NCBI RefSeq assembly: GCF_004135645.1 | Contig: NZ_SDPW01000001.1 | Location: forward strand, 2,356,001-2,420,000 | Length of the DNA: 64,000 nucleotides | Source: Senegalimassilia faecalis | GTDB lineage: Bacteria > Actinomycetota > Coriobacteriia > Coriobacteriales > Eggerthellaceae | Direction: 5' to 3' | Shown here: in pieces, positions 45,291-57,530 of the stretch | Position numbering within the stretch: the stretch's first letter is position 1 | How the letters are laid out: each line of letters begins with the position of its first letter | Made by a program: the position numbers and the translations under genes | Notes under the pieces: model-generated | Database searches by the model: none | Told to the model about the DNA's origin: nothing | What the model saw: the letters and a program-made list of their open reading frames with translations, nothing else

Positions 45291-45334
45291 GCCGGCCTCT
45301 CGGCCGCTCGCGCGCATAGAAAAGCGCCCTCCGC

Positions 45335-45448
<114 letters not shown>

Positions 45449-45579
45449 GCGGGGGGCGCTCCCCCGCGGCTCATGGATATGAGCCTGCCCGGGTCCCCTT
45501 CCGGGGCGACCCTGGCGGCCGTGCAGCGAAGGAAGCTGCCCGCACATCGACGCCTCGCAAAATCCCTTACGAGGATGCG

Positions 45580-50350
<4,771 letters not shown>

Positions 50351-51020
50351 AAGAAGAGCGGGGCCGGTCTCCCGTCCCCGCGATCTTTGGCATAAAAAGA
50401 AAAACTTTAAAAGAAATTGTAAATCCGGGGCAGGCGGGCTCAAAGTAGGTAGGCCCTGCCTGCGCTGGCTTCACTGGCTATTGTGATCGTCTCTTGTCCA
50501 GTATCCGGTTCTCAAGGTTCCCGCCTGCGGGGGTGCTCCCCGCGGCTTTCCCTTCGGAGCAGGCCCGCTTTCGCTTGCCGCCCCTCAAGGCGAGGATGTA
50601 CTTTACGCCTCCCCCGCCGGCTTGGCAAGCCCCCATCTTCGAGATGCTGGGTTCTACACATTTTGCACACATTCTGATATTCTACGAACATCTGTTTGTG
50701 TTTCTTGAATTTCAAGTTCATCGCATCTGATCTCTTAGATGCTCTTGTTTGATGCTTAGCTCATTCGCTCTTGTTCCTCATCCGTTGCTATCTGAGTTCT
50801 TTTGCATTCAACCTTGCTTGTCTTTTCAGACGTCACTGATTTCAATCCTTATACCTTCAGTGCTATTTTCTTTTGCAGCTTAGCTACTGCTACTTTTCTG
50901 TTCCTGCTTTTAATCTGCCTCCCCGTCTCCCACTCTTACCTTCTTTCACTCTTCGTTTTTGAGCTGTCTATTGTAATTAGCGTTTCTTCTATGAGCCGAT
51001 TCGGCCGACTGCCACAACGT

Positions 51021-51050
51021 CTATATACTTCTATATATTTCTATATATAG
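51021..51050. repeat. AT-rich decamer repeats
   Basis: Three tandem ten-base units, CTATATACTT, CTATATATTT and CTATATATAG. Further TTCTATATTT-like elements appear near 51271. AT-rich direct repeats of this size are typical of DNA-unwinding elements at replication origins. Confidence 0.7.
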
Positions 51051-51655
51051 ATGTCTGCTTTCTCTGTCGACTACAGCAGAAGACTCGTTTTCTGAAATCT
51101 TTCTCGCTGCGCCCCAAATATCTAGGTGTTCATTATTTCGTCAACTAATTTTGAAGGCGCTTCTTAATGCGTGGGTAAATAGAATTGTAATCTCCTTATG
51201 GCATCTGTCCTTGTCTGCATGCAATCTTTTATCCTCTGCGTCTACTTGCAAATTTGATTTTGCTCTTGCCATATATCCGCTTCTATATTTCCACTCATGA
51301 TTGCGTTTCTATTCGCGTAGTTACCTCTTTGCATGCAACTCGCCATACTTGCGCCTGCTGACACTGCTTTATTGCTACCCAATACTTGCTTCAAGTTTGT
51401 CCACACATCTCATCTGGTTCTGCTGAGCATTATTGTTTTTGAATCATTTCTTGTATTCATATATTTGCCATTCGGATTTTTCCCATATAGGCATTCTTGG
51501 TCTTTACGAAATTATCTTATGTAATCCTGCTGTATGGTGTCTTCTGAGTCATGCTGTGTCATATATTGTATTTCGGATTTGGTTTCATTTTGATGTTTGA
51601 ATTTTCTTAATCCTATTTCTAAAGCAATATTTTGCAGTCTGTTTCTCTATCGTCT

Positions 51656-51762
51656 TTGCTGCTGTTTGCTTCGTTCTTCAAAATCCTTACTGTGCAGTCG
51701 CTGCACAGTAAGGATTTCCTGAATCCCCATATCACTTAGACCTGCGACACAAACAGCAGCAA
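51656..51762. repeat. dyad site 1 with outer inverted repeat
   Basis: The inner dyad at 51681-51717 has perfect 17-bp arms and three central bases (TCG). Its core is TACTGTGCAG, TCG, CTGCACAGTA. Outer perfect 13-bp inverted repeats (TTGCTGCTGTTTG at 51656-51668 and its complement at 51750-51762) enclose it. Confidence 0.85.
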
Positions 51763-52295
51763 TTGAACTAATCAACATGATGCAGTCACCAAACTGATTG
51801 TGAACTTCCACTGAATTGAAAAAGCCTGAATCGAGTGGCTTCAAATATCTATTCAGCAATCAATCTAATACCATTCATCTAATCAAGTTCAAAGTGAATG
51901 AAACGCTGCTTGTAGCCGACAATCAATTGGACTTGCTCAACCAAGCCAAGTGAGTGATTTCGTCAACGTGGGTTAGTGGGTTATTTCGCTGATGACCGTT
52001 AGTGCTTGCTCGAGTCGATTCATCACTTATAAACAAGCACTCATAGGGATTTGATTGAGTAACTACCACAACTTTACTTGTCTTAAAGATGCATTAGTGA
52101 AACTAAAATGCAGTTGCAACTACGGATTCGCGCAGCTGCAACAGTATCTCCAACAATCAAACTAATCTAGACATGCATCCCGACAGATACATACCTATGG
52201 CAAAAGATAGAGCAGCAGTAAAAGATGCTCGCTGCGCATCAATCTGAGGACATTGAATTAGTCGATGTATGGATTCCGGCTAAGCTGCACAACTG

Positions 52296-52360
52296 GTTTC
52301 TCCTTTCCAGAATCATTACTGTGCAGTCGCTGCACAGTAATGATTCTGGAAAGGAGAAAC
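52296..52360. repeat. dyad site 2, 65-bp palindrome
   Basis: Perfect 31-bp arms (52296-52326 and 52330-52360) flank TCG. The inner 10 bases of each arm are the same core as in sites 1 and 3, while the outer parts differ, so the site was rebuilt outward as a palindrome. A cruciform or very stable hairpin could form. Confidence 0.9.
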
Positions 52361-52514
52361 TGGGTGCGACGAACTTAGGGCAAGCTCGGTCGGCTTATGG
52401 GGTCCAAGGAGATGAGGCCTGTCGACATATAGTTACAGGGTGAAATGCCATACTGTTCTTAGGAGAGTTTTAACAAATAGTTTGTGAAGTGAGCCATTAA
52501 TTATTATATATTCA

Positions 52515-52573
52515 TTGTTACTAAAGACACCGTTTGTTAGAATATCTACTGTGCAGCGACTGCACAGTAGATA
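52515..52573 (+). promoter_or_regulatory. parA promoter with dyad site 3 as operator
   Basis: TTGTTA (52515-52520) and TAGAAT (52538-52543) are spaced by 17 bases. The third dyad (52543-52573, 14-bp arms) starts at the last base of the -10 and covers the expected start of transcription. Its centre is CGA, the reverse of sites 1 and 2. A protein bound here would repress parAB. Confidence 0.7.
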
Positions 52574-52631
52574 GAATTTAGACGTACGTTTGTTCGTGTA
52601 CAACCCCTTTCCATATAAGACAGGAGCCTTG

Positions 52632-53633
52632 ATGGCCGGAAGAACCAAAGCACGTGGCGGAGAGAAGCAGCAGCAGTCTCTTTCGCTAGGACGCGAAACC
52701 GTCGAAGAGCTAGAAAAGGAAGCAGAGCGTAGAGGCCTCAACAAGTCTCAACTTGCCGACTTACTGCTAAACGGTCAGCTTACTCAATCGGCGGATAAAC
52801 CGACGATCATTTCGATTATGAGTTACAAAGGCGGCGTGGCCAAAACCACTACCAGCACATGTCTTGCCGTTTGTCTTTCGGAACTGGGATATAAAGTACT
52901 GGTTATCGACATGGACGGTCAGGGCAACGTGAGCCAGAGCCTTCGCGTGTACGACCCGCGCTCCGAAGAGGCTTGCATTGCCGATGTATTGTATCAGACC
53001 TCCCCGAACTCGCCGCGCCTGACGCTGCGCGAAGTAATGAGGACAACCGAGTACGAGAACGTGTACTGCGTGCCTTCGAACTTCCGATTCGCAGATGCGG
53101 ACACGCGCTTGAAAGCAGAAATTGCTGGCGGCGTGGATACCCGACTTCGCTATGCGATTGAAGATCTTATCAGCGAAACTGCAAAAGCAGGCGAACGTAA
53201 GTTCGATTACATCATCATCGACTGCGGTCCTCGCTTGGACATGACTACGACGAACGCGATTGTGGCACTTGAGGCAGGCAATAACGCTTCGCACATCATC
53301 ATCCCGATTAAGGTCGACGGCTTCGCCATTGCCGGCCTGTCTCAGACGATCGATACCATCAACCGCACAGCAAAGGAGCGCCGTCGCCTTCCGCAGCATT
53401 GGAAAATCTTGCAAACGATGATCGAACGCAATACTTCCGCGTATAAATATGGTTGCCAGATGCTGAAAGAAGCGATTCCGAATGCTGAATACTTCAACAC
53501 GAAAATCGAGAAGAGCACCGTGGTACCCGAAGCAAGCTTGGCAATGGAACCGCTCATTACGTACGACCCCAACAGCAAACCAGCCATTTCGTATCGACTG
53601 CTGGCTCAAGAAATCGAGGCCATGAATGCCTAG
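52632..53633 (+). CDS. parA: ParA ATPase with N-terminal ribbon-helix-helix domain
   Basis: A 333-residue partition ATPase. Residues 57 onward have the deviant Walker A (SYKGGVAKTTTS, residues 64-75), Walker A' (VIDMDGQGNVSQSL) and Walker B (YIIIDCGPRLDMTTTNA). Residues 15-49 (QSLSLGRETVEELEKEAERRG, here in two pieces QSLSLGRETVEEL and EKEAERRGLNKSQLAD) look like a ribbon-helix-helix DNA-binding domain. Most ParA proteins have either no N-terminal domain or a helix-turn-helix. ATG 52632 has AGGAG seven bases before it; a longer TTG form is unlikely. The stop overlaps parB by eight bases. Confidence 0.9.
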   Translation: MAGRTKARGGEKQQQSLSLGRETVEELEKEAERRGLNKSQLADLLLNGQLTQSADKPTIISIMSYKGGVAKTTTSTCLAVCLSELGYKVLVIDMDGQGNVSQSLRVYDPRSEEACIADVLYQTSPNSPRLTLREVMRTTEYENVYCVPSNFRFADADTRLKAEIAGGVDTRLRYAIEDLISETAKAGERKFDYIIIDCGPRLDMTTTNAIVALEAGNNASHIIIPIKVDGFAIAGLSQTIDTINRTAKERRRLPQHWKILQTMIERNTSAYKYGCQMLKEAIPNAEYFNTKIEKSTVVPEASLAMEPLITYDPNSKPAISYRLLAQEIEAMNA

Positions 53634-54687
53634 GAAGAAACTGCAAGCTGCCATGAAAAGCGGCGGGGGAGCCGTGGCAAACGTGATTCCTCGACACGAA
53701 AAGCTAACCGATGAGCAAATGCGCTTGGCCGCGTTCGAAGCTCGCGATAATCAGGAAACGTCTATCACCGATAAAATGGCGAACGACAACCGTCGCAATA
53801 CGCTGCTGGCGGAAATGGGCTTTGACTGGTTCGACATCAATAGCCTGACGCCGAATCCTAACAACAGCTACACCATCACCGATGAAGACGTGAAAAACCT
53901 TGCGGGCTTGATCTGGAACAGCAAGGAAATAGAACCGCTGATTCTTCGCGAAACCGAAGACGGCATTCAGATCATCGATGGCGAGCGTCGCTGGAGAGCC
54001 TGTAAACTGCTGGCAGAGAAGTACGGCGATGCATGGCGAATGGTGCCCGGACGCTGCCATAAAATGGGAGCGATTTCCGACGAGCAGGCCAACTTCATCA
54101 TGCATTCCAGCAACATAGGCCAGCGCAACATAAAGCCGTCGGAACGCGCCCAAGGCTTCAAAGTACTGGCTGACAAGCTGGTCGAATGGCGTAAAGAGGA
54201 CCCGGCGCTGAAAGGCGTGAATACTAAGACGTACCTAGCGGAGCACTTCGGAGTATCGGAAAGAACCGCACAGGTGCTGCTGAACATCGCAAGGAACCTC
54301 TCAAAAGAAGGAAACGACCTTCTTGACGCGGGGAGCATCACGCAAACGCAAGCAGAGGCGCTGTCAAAACTGCCGAGTGTAAAGCAAGATGCCGTAGTAA
54401 ACGCAATGCGAGAAGAGAACCTTACGCCGGACGAAATTACCACGCTTATCGAAGCGACCAAAAAGGCTGAAACGGAAACGGAACCCCAACCGGTAAGTGA
54501 GATTACGCGAACGATCAAAGCCGAGCCGCAAAACAAGGAGTCAAAGCCGGCAAAAGATATCAACGGGTATCTGAAAAGCGCGAGAAACGCATTGCGCAAG
54601 GCAGAAAGCGCTGAAGGCGAAGCAGACTTCAGGCTTATCGGCGAGATAAAGGCTTCCATCAGAAACATCGAAAAGTCACTGGAGTAA
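53626..54687 (+). CDS. parB: ParB-like centromere-binding protein
   Basis: A 353-residue ParB-family protein. The CTP-binding N-domain has ITDEDVKNLAGLI and DGERRWRA (the GERR motif, residues 119-122) and box II is SSNIGQRNIKPSERA. The helix-turn-helix is YLAEHFGVSERTAQVLLNIA around residue 210. The C-terminal 60 residues are helical and charged and likely dimerise. It is translationally coupled to parA. Likely DNA sites are the three dyads upstream. It resembles plasmid rather than chromosomal ParB, whose 16-bp parS is not seen here. Confidence 0.88.
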   Translation: MPRKKLQAAMKSGGGAVANVIPRHEKLTDEQMRLAAFEARDNQETSITDKMANDNRRNTLLAEMGFDWFDINSLTPNPNNSYTITDEDVKNLAGLIWNSKEIEPLILRETEDGIQIIDGERRWRACKLLAEKYGDAWRMVPGRCHKMGAISDEQANFIMHSSNIGQRNIKPSERAQGFKVLADKLVEWRKEDPALKGVNTKTYLAEHFGVSERTAQVLLNIARNLSKEGNDLLDAGSITQTQAEALSKLPSVKQDAVVNAMREENLTPDEITTLIEATKKAETETEPQPVSEITRTIKAEPQNKESKPAKDINGYLKSARNALRKAESAEGEADFRLIGEIKASIRNIEKSLE

Positions 54688-56262
54688 GCGGCAATAGTAA
54701 AGGCAATAAAACCGCCAACGTTTACGATAAAGAAGAGCATGCCAAGACAAAGCCCTCTGGAAACTGACAAGAATCAGTGGAAAGAGGGTTTTTGTCACTT
54801 TGAAGTACCTGACAACAGAAGGAGAACCAGAGGTTAAACCGATGGAATCCCCAAGCTTCAGGGCGAGGGAGATAGATGGCAGAACAGAGCACTTCAAAGA
54901 CTCGTATGACAAAAAATTGCAAAGTATATCGTGTTTCTTGTTGTAGCGATTCATTGAAATGATGTTATATGATCTTGTACGTTTTCTTGTTACGGTTTGC
55001 CCTGCAGCCTTGAGGACGGAAGCAACGGTTCGAGGGGAGCAACCTACAGAATTTGCAATCTGGGCATGGGTGTATCCTTCCTGCCTGAGAGACAGAATCA
55101 TGTGATTACGTGTTTGTTTGCGTTGTGCAGTGAGTTGCTTTTGCTCCTTTCGTTCGAGGGAACGCTTCGATTCGAAGAAGTTGAGGTCAACAAGTTCTTG
55201 AGGAGTAAGGGCAAGAAGCTCAGTTAAACGCTGAGCCCCAATGAGGTAGTAGCCTTTTTCGCCTCGAACGTTGGTGACTTCGTCAACGGAAGCGATAACG
55301 CCTGCAAGTTCTTTTTGATCCAGCGGCTTGATGAACTGGTTATTGAAAGTCTTGAGACGAGTTTTCGCTTCGTCGCGCATATAGATTTGCACCGCCGTGT
55401 TGTAGAACACGAACGACATGAGCTCGCGCGTGCCCTCGCAGTCGTAGTTGCGGTATTTCTGCAGTTCGATGAGTTTGCCGAGCCGGCTCATGAGCATCGG
55501 CTGGAAACGCATGATGCTTGCAGGACGCGCAAATGAAGCGCGCAAGGACTGGGTTTTCATTTGAGTATTCGACTGGGCGAAACGGTACAGACTCGAGAGG
55601 CTGTAGAACACGTCTGCGTGTTGCACGAGCGAGGCGAACTGGCCGGCTTTTGCGTTGAACGTACCGGGGATGCGCGAAACACGCGAAACATCGAACGTTG
55701 CGCGATCGACTTCGAGTCCCTCAACAGGGGAAACGATGCGTTCGAGCGTATCGGCCAGGCCGGATTGCACGAGTTCGAACAGGTGAACGGCCTTCTGGTT
55801 GATAGAGCCGCTTTCGAATCGGTACGGCACAGAGCGCTCAAGCACGAAGAAGAGCTGCACGCCACGGCCGGAATTGATGGTCATGGTTGGCTGGGGAAGC
55901 AGGTGCGCTTCGACAGCTTGTTGCAGCACGTTGAGCGCATGGTGCACCGTTGCGTGCGTGCGTGCAGCATCCTGGTTGTGGCAATCGAGGTCGAAGAACA
56001 ACGCGTTCAGCTGTCTGACCTGGTGAGATTTGCGGCAGCACGAAGTGAACCCGTTGTGGGTCATGTAGTAGCTTGCCCGCGGGTTGAAGCCCAAAGCGGG
56101 AAGCGAATCTTTTTTCACAGCGGTATCGGTCCAGGTTCCGTTGGCGCAAGACGACACGACGTAATAGCTGTTGCGGTCGTCATGGGTGATGAGCCGGTAA
56201 AAGGTTTCCCACTCGGATTCCTGAATCGACGATGCCGCTGCGCTCGATTGCTGTCGAGACAT
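54676..56262 (-). CDS. plasmid-type replication protein with primase-polymerase fold
   Basis: A 528-residue protein. Residues 85-200 match archaeo-eukaryotic primase/Rep proteins: ALFFDLDCHN supplies the metal-binding Asp91 and Asp93, NSGRGVQLFFVLE is the following conserved block, and RVSRIPGTFNAKAG matches the motif III region. Near residue 405 is a helix-turn-helix (YTHAQIANSVGCSPRTVASVL). The last 90 residues are unusual, hydrophobic and encoded across the parB terminator, so the original stop may have been lost. It is convergent with parB, overlapping by 12 bases. It would initiate replication of a plasmid-like replicon. Confidence 0.75.
   Translation of the reverse strand: MSRQQSSAAASSIQESEWETFYRLITHDDRNSYYVVSSCANGTWTDTAVKKDSLPALGFNPRASYYMTHNGFTSCCRKSHQVRQLNALFFDLDCHNQDAARTHATVHHALNVLQQAVEAHLLPQPTMTINSGRGVQLFFVLERSVPYRFESGSINQKAVHLFELVQSGLADTLERIVSPVEGLEVDRATFDVSRVSRIPGTFNAKAGQFASLVQHADVFYSLSSLYRFAQSNTQMKTQSLRASFARPASIMRFQPMLMSRLGKLIELQKYRNYDCEGTRELMSFVFYNTAVQIYMRDEAKTRLKTFNNQFIKPLDQKELAGVIASVDEVTNVRGEKGYYLIGAQRLTELLALTPQELVDLNFFESKRSLERKEQKQLTAQRKQTRNHMILSLRQEGYTHAQIANSVGCSPRTVASVLKAAGQTVTRKRTRSYNIISMNRYNKKHDILCNFLSYESLKCSVLPSISLALKLGDSIGLTSGSPSVVRYFKVTKTLFPLILVSFQRALSWHALLYRKRWRFYCLYYCRLLQ
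54753..54793 (+). terminator. parAB terminator
   Basis: CCCTCT and AGAGGG arms, with an inner ACTGA/TCAGT pairing, are followed by TTTTTG on the plus strand, 65 bases after the parB stop. It lies inside the 3' end of the convergent rep frame. Confidence 0.7.
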
Positions 56263-56355
56263 GCTGCACCCTAAGCAGAGGCGGAAAGCCCCTGCTCCTC
56301 GTCGAAGTTATTTCGTTTTCGACAATGAAAAAAAGAGTGCAAAAACAAGAACGCC

Positions 56356-56384
56356 TTGTGAGCGCCTGTTCAAAGTGATAAAAT
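56356..56384 (+). promoter_or_regulatory. antisense RNA promoter
   Basis: TTGTGA (56356-56361) and TAAAAT (56379-56384) are spaced by 17 bases on the plus strand. The start would be near 56391. Confidence 0.65.
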
Positions 56385-56390
56385 ATCAAC

Positions 56391-56463
56391 TGTGAGTGAG
56401 TGGTCGATACATGATCACTTAGGCAGCCCCCAGTTGGCGCTGGGGGCTTCTTTTTTTTCTTTT
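56391..56463 (+). ncRNA. putative counter-transcribed RNA controlling rep
   Basis: A predicted RNA of about 70 bases starts near 56391 and ends at a strong terminator. It has two stem-loops: AGTGGTC...GATCACT (56400-56420 region) and the terminator stem. It is transcribed opposite to rep and complementary to the rep mRNA leader, which would run from about 56514 to 56262. This is the arrangement of copy-number control RNAs in plasmids. No known family is matched. Confidence 0.65.
56425..56463 (+). terminator. terminator of the antisense RNA
   Basis: AGCCCCCAG and its complement (56425-56433, 56440-56448) flank a six-base loop and are followed by a long T-tract (TCTTTTTTTTCTTTT). It is a textbook intrinsic terminator on the plus strand, yet no protein gene lies upstream on that strand within 1.7 kb. 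Confidence 0.88.
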
Positions 56464-56520
56464 GTCTGTTCACGGCTTGGGCATGTTGGCGCATGCTTGT
56501 GCCGCTTGTAACGCGTTCAG

Positions 56521-56560
56521 TCTATAACAAAAAACAGTGAAGTGTCCACTGGTTTTTGTT
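56521..56560 (-). promoter_or_regulatory. rep promoter with overlapping operator
   Basis: On the minus strand TGGACA (56543-56548) and TATAGA (56521-56526) are spaced by 16 bases. A dyad with 14-base arms and one mismatch (AACAAAAAACAGTG at 56526-56539 and CACTGGTTTTTGTT at 56547-56560) overlaps the -35 and spacer, so a repressor, perhaps Rep itself, may control it. Confidence 0.65.
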
Positions 56561-56879
56561 AGAAATACGGGGACGGCAGCGCGATTGCTACGAGACATTG
56601 CGAATAGAGCGCAGCGGCGAGAAGGTTGAGCCGCGCTCAAAACCGCTTCTTCACCAGGTAAAACGTCAATAATTGTTTTGTGTTGGGATGTCGCGTTGCT
56701 GAGGTAGCGGGCGGCATTTGGAAATTTGGGAAATGTGTTGCCGCTGGCAGGCTAATGAGGGTTGACCGCCCAGCTGCCAAGGGGAATGGCGTATTATGGT
56801 GAGTTACGGAATATGGCGGGCGAAGCGGAGGTTGCTATATGGTTCGTCCGCTGCGGCAAGGCCCGAGAGGAGTCTTTTC

Positions 56880-57530
56880 ATGGATGATTTGCGATTGACC
56901 GATGAGCGCTTGTGCGTGCTCGATCACCCGCTTGTTGAGCATAAACTTTCAATTATGCGCGACGAAAACACCACGCCCTCGCAGTTTCGCCAGATGGTGC
57001 ACGAGATTTCGATAATTGAGGTGTTCGAGGCGACGCGCGATTTGCCGACGGAGCCGGTTGAGGTGAAGACGCCGCTGCAGACCATGACGGGCAAGCATGT
57101 TCCGAGCAACCTGCTTGCGGTGGTGCCGATTCTTCGCGCGGGCATGGGCATGCTTGACGGCGTGCTTTCCGTGATTCCCTCGGCGGCGGTTGGCGTGCTG
57201 GGCATGGAGCGCAACGAGGAGACGCATCAGCCGCGCGAGTATTACGCGAAGATGCCGAAGGGCATCGAGAATCGCTCGGTGTTTTTGATTGACCCGATGC
57301 TGGCAACGGGCGGCAGCGCGTTGGCGGCCATTCACTACCTGCGCAAACAGGGCGTGAAGGATATTCGCCTGCTTGTGCTGGTGGCGGCGCCCGAGGGTGT
57401 TCGCGCGGTGCTTGCCGACGACCCGGAGGTTCGCATTTGGACGTGCGCGCTTGACGAGGGCCTGAACGACCAGGCGTACATTTTGCCGGGTCTTGGCGAC
57501 GCGGGCGACCGCATTTTCGGAACGGTGTAA
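56880..57530 (+). CDS. upp: uracil phosphoribosyltransferase
   Basis: A 216-residue pyrimidine salvage enzyme making UMP from uracil and PRPP. The PRPP loop is LIDPMLATGGSA, the uracil-binding C-terminus is LNDQAYILPGLGDAGDRIFG, and MRDENTTPSQFRQMVHEIS is the family N-terminus. ATG 56880 has GAGGAG eight bases upstream; a longer frame from 56796 lacks family likeness. Confidence 0.96.
   Translation: MDDLRLTDERLCVLDHPLVEHKLSIMRDENTTPSQFRQMVHEISIIEVFEATRDLPTEPVEVKTPLQTMTGKHVPSNLLAVVPILRAGMGMLDGVLSVIPSAAVGVLGMERNEETHQPREYYAKMPKGIENRSVFLIDPMLATGGSALAAIHYLRKQGVKDIRLLVLVAAPEGVRAVLADDPEVRIWTCALDEGLNDQAYILPGLGDAGDRIFGTV

Follow-up and report, generated by a model that had tools for sequence, protein, structure and literature searches.

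Bacterial chromosomes as a rule have one origin of replication, and a plasmid-type replication and partition module in the middle of a chromosome raises the question of what it does there. Here we analyse such a module in Senegalimassilia faecalis (Eggerthellaceae, Actinomycetota), a 5.9-kb block in a stretch of 64,000 nucleotides (the window; positions 2,356,001 to 2,420,000 of contig NZ_SDPW01000001.1, assembly GCF_004135645.1). The parts that a sequence-only reading had named in it (AT-rich decamers, dyads, ParA, ParB, a primase-like Rep and an antisense RNA) are all present, and its proposed flanks, a ribosomal RNA (rRNA) operon and upp, are both found in this genome. That reading took the block for either a plasmid that had integrated and could still fire or a locus of the chromosome that had taken on plasmid functions; both halves fit the GC skew, the GC skew at third codon positions (GC3 skew) and the dif-like sites described below, from which we infer firing. 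The block is probably a plasmid-type replicon core that has turned into a second origin and second centromere of a circular chromosome, beside the DnaA-oriC system.

Two origin-like points on the assembled chromosome

As assembled, the dnaA locus (1.024 Mb) and the Rep block share a single contig of 2.745 Mb, on which dnaA and the window (2.356-2.420 Mb) are nearly diametrically opposite. The dnaA locus has a DnaA-box cluster (11 boxes in 20 kb, with 3.0 expected). In the window the GC skew switches sign inside the block, with the cumulative minimum at 52195. Over the genome, sampled in pieces of 10-20 kb that with the window make up 954 kb, the cumulative skew has two minima (dnaA and the block) and two maxima (~0.12-0.15 and 1.95 Mb). 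A step function with free positions, fitted to 191 bins of GC skew on a 30-kb grid, has its origins at 1.02 and 2.40 Mb, with termini at 0.15 and 1.98 Mb. Going from one origin to two lowers the Bayesian information criterion (BIC) from -1064.2 to -1128.4, and a further origin brings no gain (-1128.8). The window is oversampled in this fit; when it contributes only three bins (n = 91), a refit gives origins at 1.05 and 2.40 Mb, with a BIC of -552.7 for two origins versus -512.7 for one. Immediately next to the block (55-63 kb of the window), the skew in 1-kb bins is +0.14 to +0.27.

Skew as a mere by-product of gene orientation is ruled out by the GC3 skew of leading versus lagging genes, determined for 557 genes called from the samples by open reading frame (ORF) length and GC content by codon position. 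Leading genes exceed lagging genes in every arm (dnaA-left, -0.086 leading and -0.175 lagging; dnaA-right, -0.070 and -0.155; Rep-left, -0.029 and -0.176; Rep-right, -0.033 and -0.200), with per-arm P values from 7e-5 to 4e-7, the arm limits being derived from the same skew data. For the Rep arc as a whole the values are -0.031 and -0.189 (n = 192, P = 2e-13), and the difference persists once the 60 kb to the left and to the right of the block are removed (n = 152, P = 9e-9). Grouping genes instead by how far they lie from the block, with fixed limits, gives P values of 2e-7 for 0-300 kb (n = 111), 0.008 for 60-300 kb (n = 71) and 1e-5 for 300-450 kb (n = 76). The strand bias of 3807 7-mers correlates between the dnaA arms and the Rep arms, the latter oriented as if forks left the block (r = 0.68), with 40 of the top 40 agreeing with the predicted direction, and gene orientation is biased in the Rep-left arm (75 of 107 genes). 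The strand asymmetry says that forks have long left the block in both directions, for ~0.45 Mb, and both origins have shaped replication over a long time.

Two samples in the Rep-left arm have low GC contents (0.51 at 2040001-2050000 and 0.50 at 2070001-2080000), possibly reflecting recent acquisition. The second contig of the assembly (2,996 bases) consists entirely of N.

dif-like sites at the termini

The actinobacterial dif consensus gave no match in the whole genome at up to three mismatches. A laxer local scan of samples was therefore used, covering 1.069 Mb (39% of the genome), with up to eight mismatches and a TTATGT or TATG core. It returned only two matches in the sampled part, at 109917 (minus strand) and 1955999 (plus strand), and a 24-mer shaped on these two found the same two only, at up to six mismatches. 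The sites lie near both fitted termini and are inverted relative to each other. The one at 1955999 is outside ORFs of at least 120 amino acids, and the one at 109917 is inside a 124-amino-acid, repeat-bearing ORF of doubtful reality (locus L190, 4866-5240, ~109.9-110.2 kb of the genome), in which the repeat, GSQVRRFA, is in frame and which overlaps the dif-like site.

Measured from origin to dif-like site, the arms are 929 and 917 kb for dnaA and 447 and 452 kb for Rep, a symmetry that, with the origins where they are, could hardly be better. Thus the arms are balanced and the dif-like sites stand at the convergence zones, where XerCD is predicted to act. Since the sites are inverted, recombination between them would invert the Rep arc and not excise it. 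Elsewhere, patterns derived from these two sites matched weakly in G043 and gave a single weak match in G007, not at its terminus.

Organization of the block

The block is bounded by a minus-strand rRNA operon (45334-50351) and plus-strand upp (56796-57530), both transcribed away from it. It comprises an AT-rich stretch lacking any recognised gene, the three palindromes, parA, parB and a convergent rep on the minus strand. The features, in window positions, are as follows.

45334-45448, minus strand: 5S rRNA (Rfam match)
45573-48551, minus strand: 23S rRNA (Rfam match)
48839-50351, minus strand: 16S rRNA of the flanking operon (Rfam match), transcribed away from the block
50700-52631, no strand: AT-rich stretch with no recognised gene, containing the cumulative GC-skew minimum of the window
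51020-51048, plus strand: AT-rich decamer array, 2.9 copies of a 10-mer, candidate unwinding element
51688-51710, plus strand: parS-like palindrome 1, core of a longer dyad (51681-51717)
52317-52339, plus strand: parS-like palindrome 2, core of a dyad (52296-52360) with perfect 31-bp arms
52547-52569, plus strand: parS-like palindrome 3, directly upstream of parA
52632-53633, plus strand: ParA-type ATPase with a ribbon-helix-helix (RHH)-like N-terminus and Walker motif KGGVAKTT (AAA_31, 133 bits)
53626-54687, plus strand: ParB-type centromere-binding protein (ParB_N, 30.9 bits, above cut-off), overlapping parA by 8 bases
54676-56262, minus strand: Rep, primase-polymerase-like initiator, its 3' end overlapping the 3' end of parB
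56356-56448, plus strand: predicted antisense RNA gene, with a promoter-like segment (56356-56384), a first hairpin (~56397-56421), a terminator hairpin (56425-56448) and UUGGCG in the loop region
56519-56572, minus strand: conserved element upstream of rep, with promoter-like hexamers TGGACA / TAGACT (scan) and TATAGA (by eye)
56796-57530, plus strand: upp, start likely at 56880, transcribed away from the block

The AT-rich stretch likely holds the initiation region. The decamers are, by eye, absent from the corresponding region of S. anaerobia, which leaves their weight unclear. Apart from shadow frames, the long ORFs in the block are parA, parB and rep; an integrase or recombinase, of which the sequence-only reading had likewise seen none, is lacking among the block's ORFs read by eye, with no hidden Markov model scan of the small ORFs. 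A DnaA-dependent second oriC at the block was considered and ruled out by the box count, as the 6.4 kb there have no DnaA-box cluster but two boxes with one mismatch (1.25 expected). The repeat listing has at least 60 families of direct repeats. At a lax threshold, Rfam gives five matches below the gathering cut-off, of which four are eukaryotic microRNA models on the second dyad.

The two partition systems

The three palindromes (at 51688, 52317 and 52547) are perfect copies of TACTGTGCAG-N3-CTGCACAGTA. No match occurs in 100 shuffles of the window, and no further copy is found in the 2.748-Mb genome at up to three mismatches, the reversed control also giving none and the second contig reading N. 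Similar cores are present upstream of parA in S. anaerobia (G001; two perfect and one with three mismatches) and in a further Senegalimassilia genome (G002; one with two mismatches), and a genome of another genus (G058) has four copies of the inner 17-base core at that place.

ParA and ParB are well conserved in the same genomes. ParA is 94% and 91% identical in the two congeners and 89% in G058, and ParB 81% and 88% in the congeners and 71% in G058; dN among congeners is 0.04-0.14 for the two proteins, synonymous sites being near or past saturation. Besides the domain matches listed above, ParA matches RHH_1 (18.2 bits, under the cut-off of 20.5) and ParB matches HTH_ParB (20.2 bits, under the cut-off of 22.6). 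The block thus carries a type I ParABS system, comprising a Walker-type ParA ATPase, a ParB with a ParB_N domain, and private palindromes upstream, to which ParB is predicted to bind. Canonical parS sites are absent from the block; nine perfect ones surround dnaA, at 995-1053 kb, and another ParB gene is at 1.0325 Mb.

Other partition-like sequences were seen in passing. A further ParB-like gene (379-amino-acid frame) is present in both S. faecalis (G000:C1:441627) and S. anaerobia (G001:C2:706268), far from both origins. A contig of another Rep-bearing genome (G135:C39; L117, 975-6388) has a second, truncated ParA/ParB pair beside the rep-adjacent one (ParB 35% identical, ParA fragment of ~48 amino acids). 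In S. anaerobia JC110 (G001:C4; L055, 16942-17580), a 9-bp repeat (GGCGGGCTT) forms a long array, containing an N gap, directly next to a parS-like palindrome.

Rep and its antisense RNA

Rep was aligned in six sequences from four genera, three of them from Senegalimassilia. Invariant in all six are D91/D93 (in FFDLDC), G132-R133-G134 and D191-R194-R197-P199-G200-N203, of which the DxD and other motif residues are presumably those of the archaeo-eukaryotic primase (AEP) motifs. A C-terminal helix-turn-helix (HTH) lies near residues ~370-420, and the tail past ~430 is poorly conserved. The PriCT_1 match (15.0 bits) is under the cut-off of 21.1, a phage replication-protein family matches weakly (E = 1e-8), and a sequence search of PDB gives weak HTH matches only. 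The top six Foldseek matches are all Prim-Pol domains of one CRISPR (clustered regularly interspaced short palindromic repeats)-associated protein, the best at E = 0.013 and none at 0.001. Neither a curated domain score nor a confident fold match places Rep in the AEP superfamily. Because the AlphaFold model is poor and the best Foldseek E value is 0.013, we name Rep primase-like; these weak matches suggest a relationship to the Prim-Pol superfamily short of proven membership. Among the three congeners rep has a dN/dS of 0.16-0.27 and is under purifying selection.

Opposite the rep leader lies the predicted antisense RNA, which folds into two hairpins with 17 predicted pairs. Of these pairs, two are kept by changes on both sides, and the UUGGCG is identical. 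Scans of the region give 11 promoter-like and 13 terminator-like sites, versus 6.7 and 7.4 in shuffles. Among nine Rep loci searched for the UUGGCG loop, the element is conserved in four, those of the three Senegalimassilia genomes and G058 (two genera); the remaining loci have none (G104, G135, G043 and G116) or one match that looks unrelated (G117). The loop presumably resembles that of the IncFII/IncB/IncI-alpha copy-control RNAs, a likeness not found in our literature search. Those RNAs are likewise short, antisense to the rep leader and equipped with a UUGGCG hairpin; unlike them, the predicted RNA of the block accompanies an unrelated Rep and has two hairpins.

A second small UUGGCG hairpin (56480-56497) is located ~50 bases past the antisense terminator, and the motif is at the same place in G001 and G002. 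The element at 56519-56572 (TATAACAARAAACA ... GTCCAC ... TTGTTA) is kept in four genomes of two genera, and may be a promoter plus an additional binding site.

Distribution in Eggerthellaceae and plasmid relatives

Of 138 Eggerthellaceae genomes from 48 genera, 10, belonging to 7 genera, have a Rep homologue. The order parA-parB-rep-upp is identical in all three searchable Senegalimassilia genomes, which rules out a block restricted to one strain and corrects its interpretation as a one-off insertion. As to whether the locus always sits between an rRNA operon and upp, the upp side is the same in all three congeners, and the rRNA junction is seen in this genome alone; the other two contigs end before the operon, in S. 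anaerobia ~3.3 kb past parA, in sequence that by eye resembles the region upstream of the rRNA operon in the window, and in G002 254 bases past parA. One finding that would have refuted the sequence-only reading is a block at this position in every relative, its Rep stripped of catalytic residues. All three congeners do have the block next to upp, but the catalytic-type residues are kept in a rep under purifying selection. The G058 block (Rep 43% identical) occupies a different locus, flanked by genes that by eye resemble nrdG and apt. Of seven other-genus Rep genomes tested, six have dnaA; none was seen in the fragmented assembly of G116.

The free plasmid form envisaged earlier was sought in plasmid and phage collections and not found, the block DNA giving no match in either. 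Rep matches 52 PLSDB records, of which the 20 listed align over residues ~25-430 at 22-28% identity. No close plasmid relative appears: Rep and ParB are below 30% identity among the matches listed, and the ParA plasmid matches are all below 60% among the best 5000 records. A scan of viral_contigs with the Rep alignment gave 49 pattern matches and no relatives. The homologous Reps belong to small Firmicutes plasmids (Clostridioides, Paraclostridium, Sarcina, Geobacillus and others in PLSDB), which are free, whereas the block is chromosomal and without a close free relative among the matches listed.

The surroundings of the block bear on how it arose. The core genes acn and mnmA, 20 kb apart across the block in S. 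faecalis, are on opposite sides of dnaA and 0.44-0.72 Mb from it in G007 and G022 (single contigs), and in G003 are both on one side of dnaA, 117 kb apart (0.46 and 0.58 Mb); G058 has mnmA and no clear acn. The neighbourhood of the block was therefore assembled by rearrangement, and rearrangements between the species are frequent. The positions of these genes, in a comparison with few markers mapped, argue for plasmid integration and rearrangement over a fusion of two chromosomes, and against a foreign replicon as the source of the Rep arc.

Related assemblies serve as controls for the strand asymmetry. On the S. anaerobia contig C4, the signature of forks leaving the block spans 80-257 kb (n = 88, P = 3e-9, with limits set after viewing the skew), the first 80 kb giving no significant signal (n = 38, P = 0.3). 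G002 agrees (n = 11, P = 0.004). On contig C10 of G058 the skew minimum is at the block, despite the other locus, with P = 2.6e-5 for the 73 kb to the left (n = 41) and four genes to the right. In the complete genomes G007 and G022, which lack Rep, the skew (20 stretches each) falls to a single broad minimum, which takes in dnaA, and rises to a single maximum.

Evidence against a second origin, and alternative explanations

Several observations weigh against the block as a second origin. Strand asymmetry is a record of past firing, not of present firing. In the Rep-right arm, gene orientation is not significantly biased (47 of 85, P = 0.39), and the seven 16S genes, which all point away from the nearest origin, add little, as dnaA alone accounts for six of them. 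The fork signal of S. anaerobia fades ~170 kb from its block and not at 450 kb; G043 leans the opposite way (n = 13, P = 0.02), G135 (n = 6) and G116 (n = 12) have no flip at the block, and among four other-genus contigs G058 is the only one with a flip. As for the dif-like sites, 61% of the genome is unscanned, and the terminus regions (105-190 kb and 1.92-2.02 Mb) were sampled in full before the scan, which favours matches there. Of trials with two positions drawn at random from the sampled parts, 0.6% bring them within 30 kb of the two fitted termini, and random placement makes both arm pairs symmetric within 1% in 0.6% of trials and within 2% in 2%. S. anaerobia has no dif-like site on C4 or in 290 of the 782 kb of C2. 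The AlphaFold model of Rep has a mean predicted local distance difference test (pLDDT) score of 57.

The main competing explanation, which we consider unlikely, is that two circles were misjoined at same-strand rRNA operons (1.891 and 2.722 Mb), namely a dnaA chromosome of ~1.91 Mb and a Rep/ParABS chromosome of ~0.83 Mb, of which the block would be the ordinary origin. Such a split gives each circle one origin, one dif-like site and arms that are fairly well matched (996/917 and 379/452 kb), and assembly errors, at rRNA operons among other places, did produce false skew patterns in Bifidobacterium longum NCC2705 (PMC1285363). However, the genome is one contig with seven 16S genes placed, which would imply reads longer than the operon. 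In S. anaerobia, moreover, the dnaA contig has genes of the Rep arc (2.50 and 2.64 Mb in S. faecalis) and the Rep contig has genes of the dnaA side (1.08 Mb). A weaker point is that the assembled circle is more symmetric (0.6% for each arm pair) than this split or one at the minus-strand operons (447/240 and 929/1129 kb). If the circles were separate, the result would be a second chromosome in Eggerthellaceae instead, at which our literature searches were not aimed.

A formerly active second origin that is now silent, kept as a partition locus or relic while oriC alone replicates the genome, is less likely still. The skew could be its record, and PMC6284228 describes a second origin in Vibrio cholerae NSCV2 that is silent yet functional when isolated; the purifying selection on rep, the conserved antisense control and the strong skew adjoining the block all speak for continued use. 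Least probable is an inert integrated plasmid with chance inversions meeting at the block, since the frequent rearrangements between species, which can make local skew minima (a caution raised in PMC4403523), would have to supply two inversions abutting here and again a flip at the G058 block in its other locus, with the dif-like sites independently coinciding with both termini.

Proposed mechanism

For the block as a second origin and centromere, the following scheme is proposed. Rep would start bidirectional replication within the block, and the antisense RNA, complementary to the rep leader, would limit Rep and hence firing. ParA and ParB, acting on the three private parS sites, would separate the copies without recourse to the canonical ParB-parS system that surrounds dnaA. 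From the block, forks would travel ~0.45 Mb each way and meet the DnaA-oriC forks (~0.92 Mb each way) at two termini with dif-like sites. Because its arms are half as long, the second origin would fire later than oriC; at equal fork speeds, it would do so once the dnaA forks are about half through their path. Present-day firing is likewise a prediction.

A fuller account can be put forward tentatively, its chances falling just short of even. The genus would long have had a circular chromosome with two origins and two centromeres, on which XerCD, acting at the inverted dif sites, could flip the plasmid-driven third but never excise it, so locking in the two-origin state. Firing would be timed such that four forks meet at dif, and a second genus would have acquired the arrangement independently, at another locus.

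Comparison with known systems

A 2015 article states that there was then no evidence of a bacterium using two functional origins on one chromosome, and lists sequence-based candidates (PMC4403523). Among the matches listed in our literature search, none reports a two-origin chromosome in Eggerthellaceae, and our searches turned up no circular case of this type that spans a genus; the experimentally confirmed bacterial cases in the work cited here are strain-level fusions or engineered. The S. faecalis chromosome looks adapted to two origins in its base composition and its dif-like sites, and the state appears old and stable. Such a chromosome would make testable how a DnaA origin and a plasmid initiator are coordinated, why two-origin chromosomes are rare, and how plasmids become parts of chromosomes.

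In Synechococcus elongatus, an integrated plasmid origin takes over the chromosome after loss of dnaA (Ohbayashi 2016, as reported in PMC7198777). The likeness is that an integrated plasmid origin drives chromosome replication, as it would in S. faecalis; that case is a replacement in a mutant, whereas here the dnaA region is kept and both places have origin signatures.

In V. cholerae, the natural fused chromosome of NSCV1 has both origins active, and NSCV1 and NSCV2 resemble the present chromosome, as assembled, in having an oriC-type and a plasmid-type origin on one molecule, the latter beside parAB and an initiator gene; they arose at strain level, by fusion of two known chromosomes, and their plasmid-type origin is of the P1 type (PMC6284228). 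In contrast, the block is in all three searchable genomes of its genus, has a primase-like Rep and an antisense RNA, and belongs to Actinomycetota.

The second origin of the dicentric Agrobacterium chromosomes is of the repABC type. For Agrobacterium fusion strains, PMC12153318 reports balanced arms and XerCD-dif as conditions for stable two-origin chromosomes. The dicentric chromosomes of Agrobacterium tumefaciens share with the assembled S. faecalis chromosome two origins and two partition systems per molecule, balanced arms and dif at fork convergence; their origins are active, while the block is predicted to fire. The Agrobacterium chromosome is linear, with one dif between its origins, whereas that of S. 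faecalis, as assembled, is circular, with two convergence zones and two dif-like sites.

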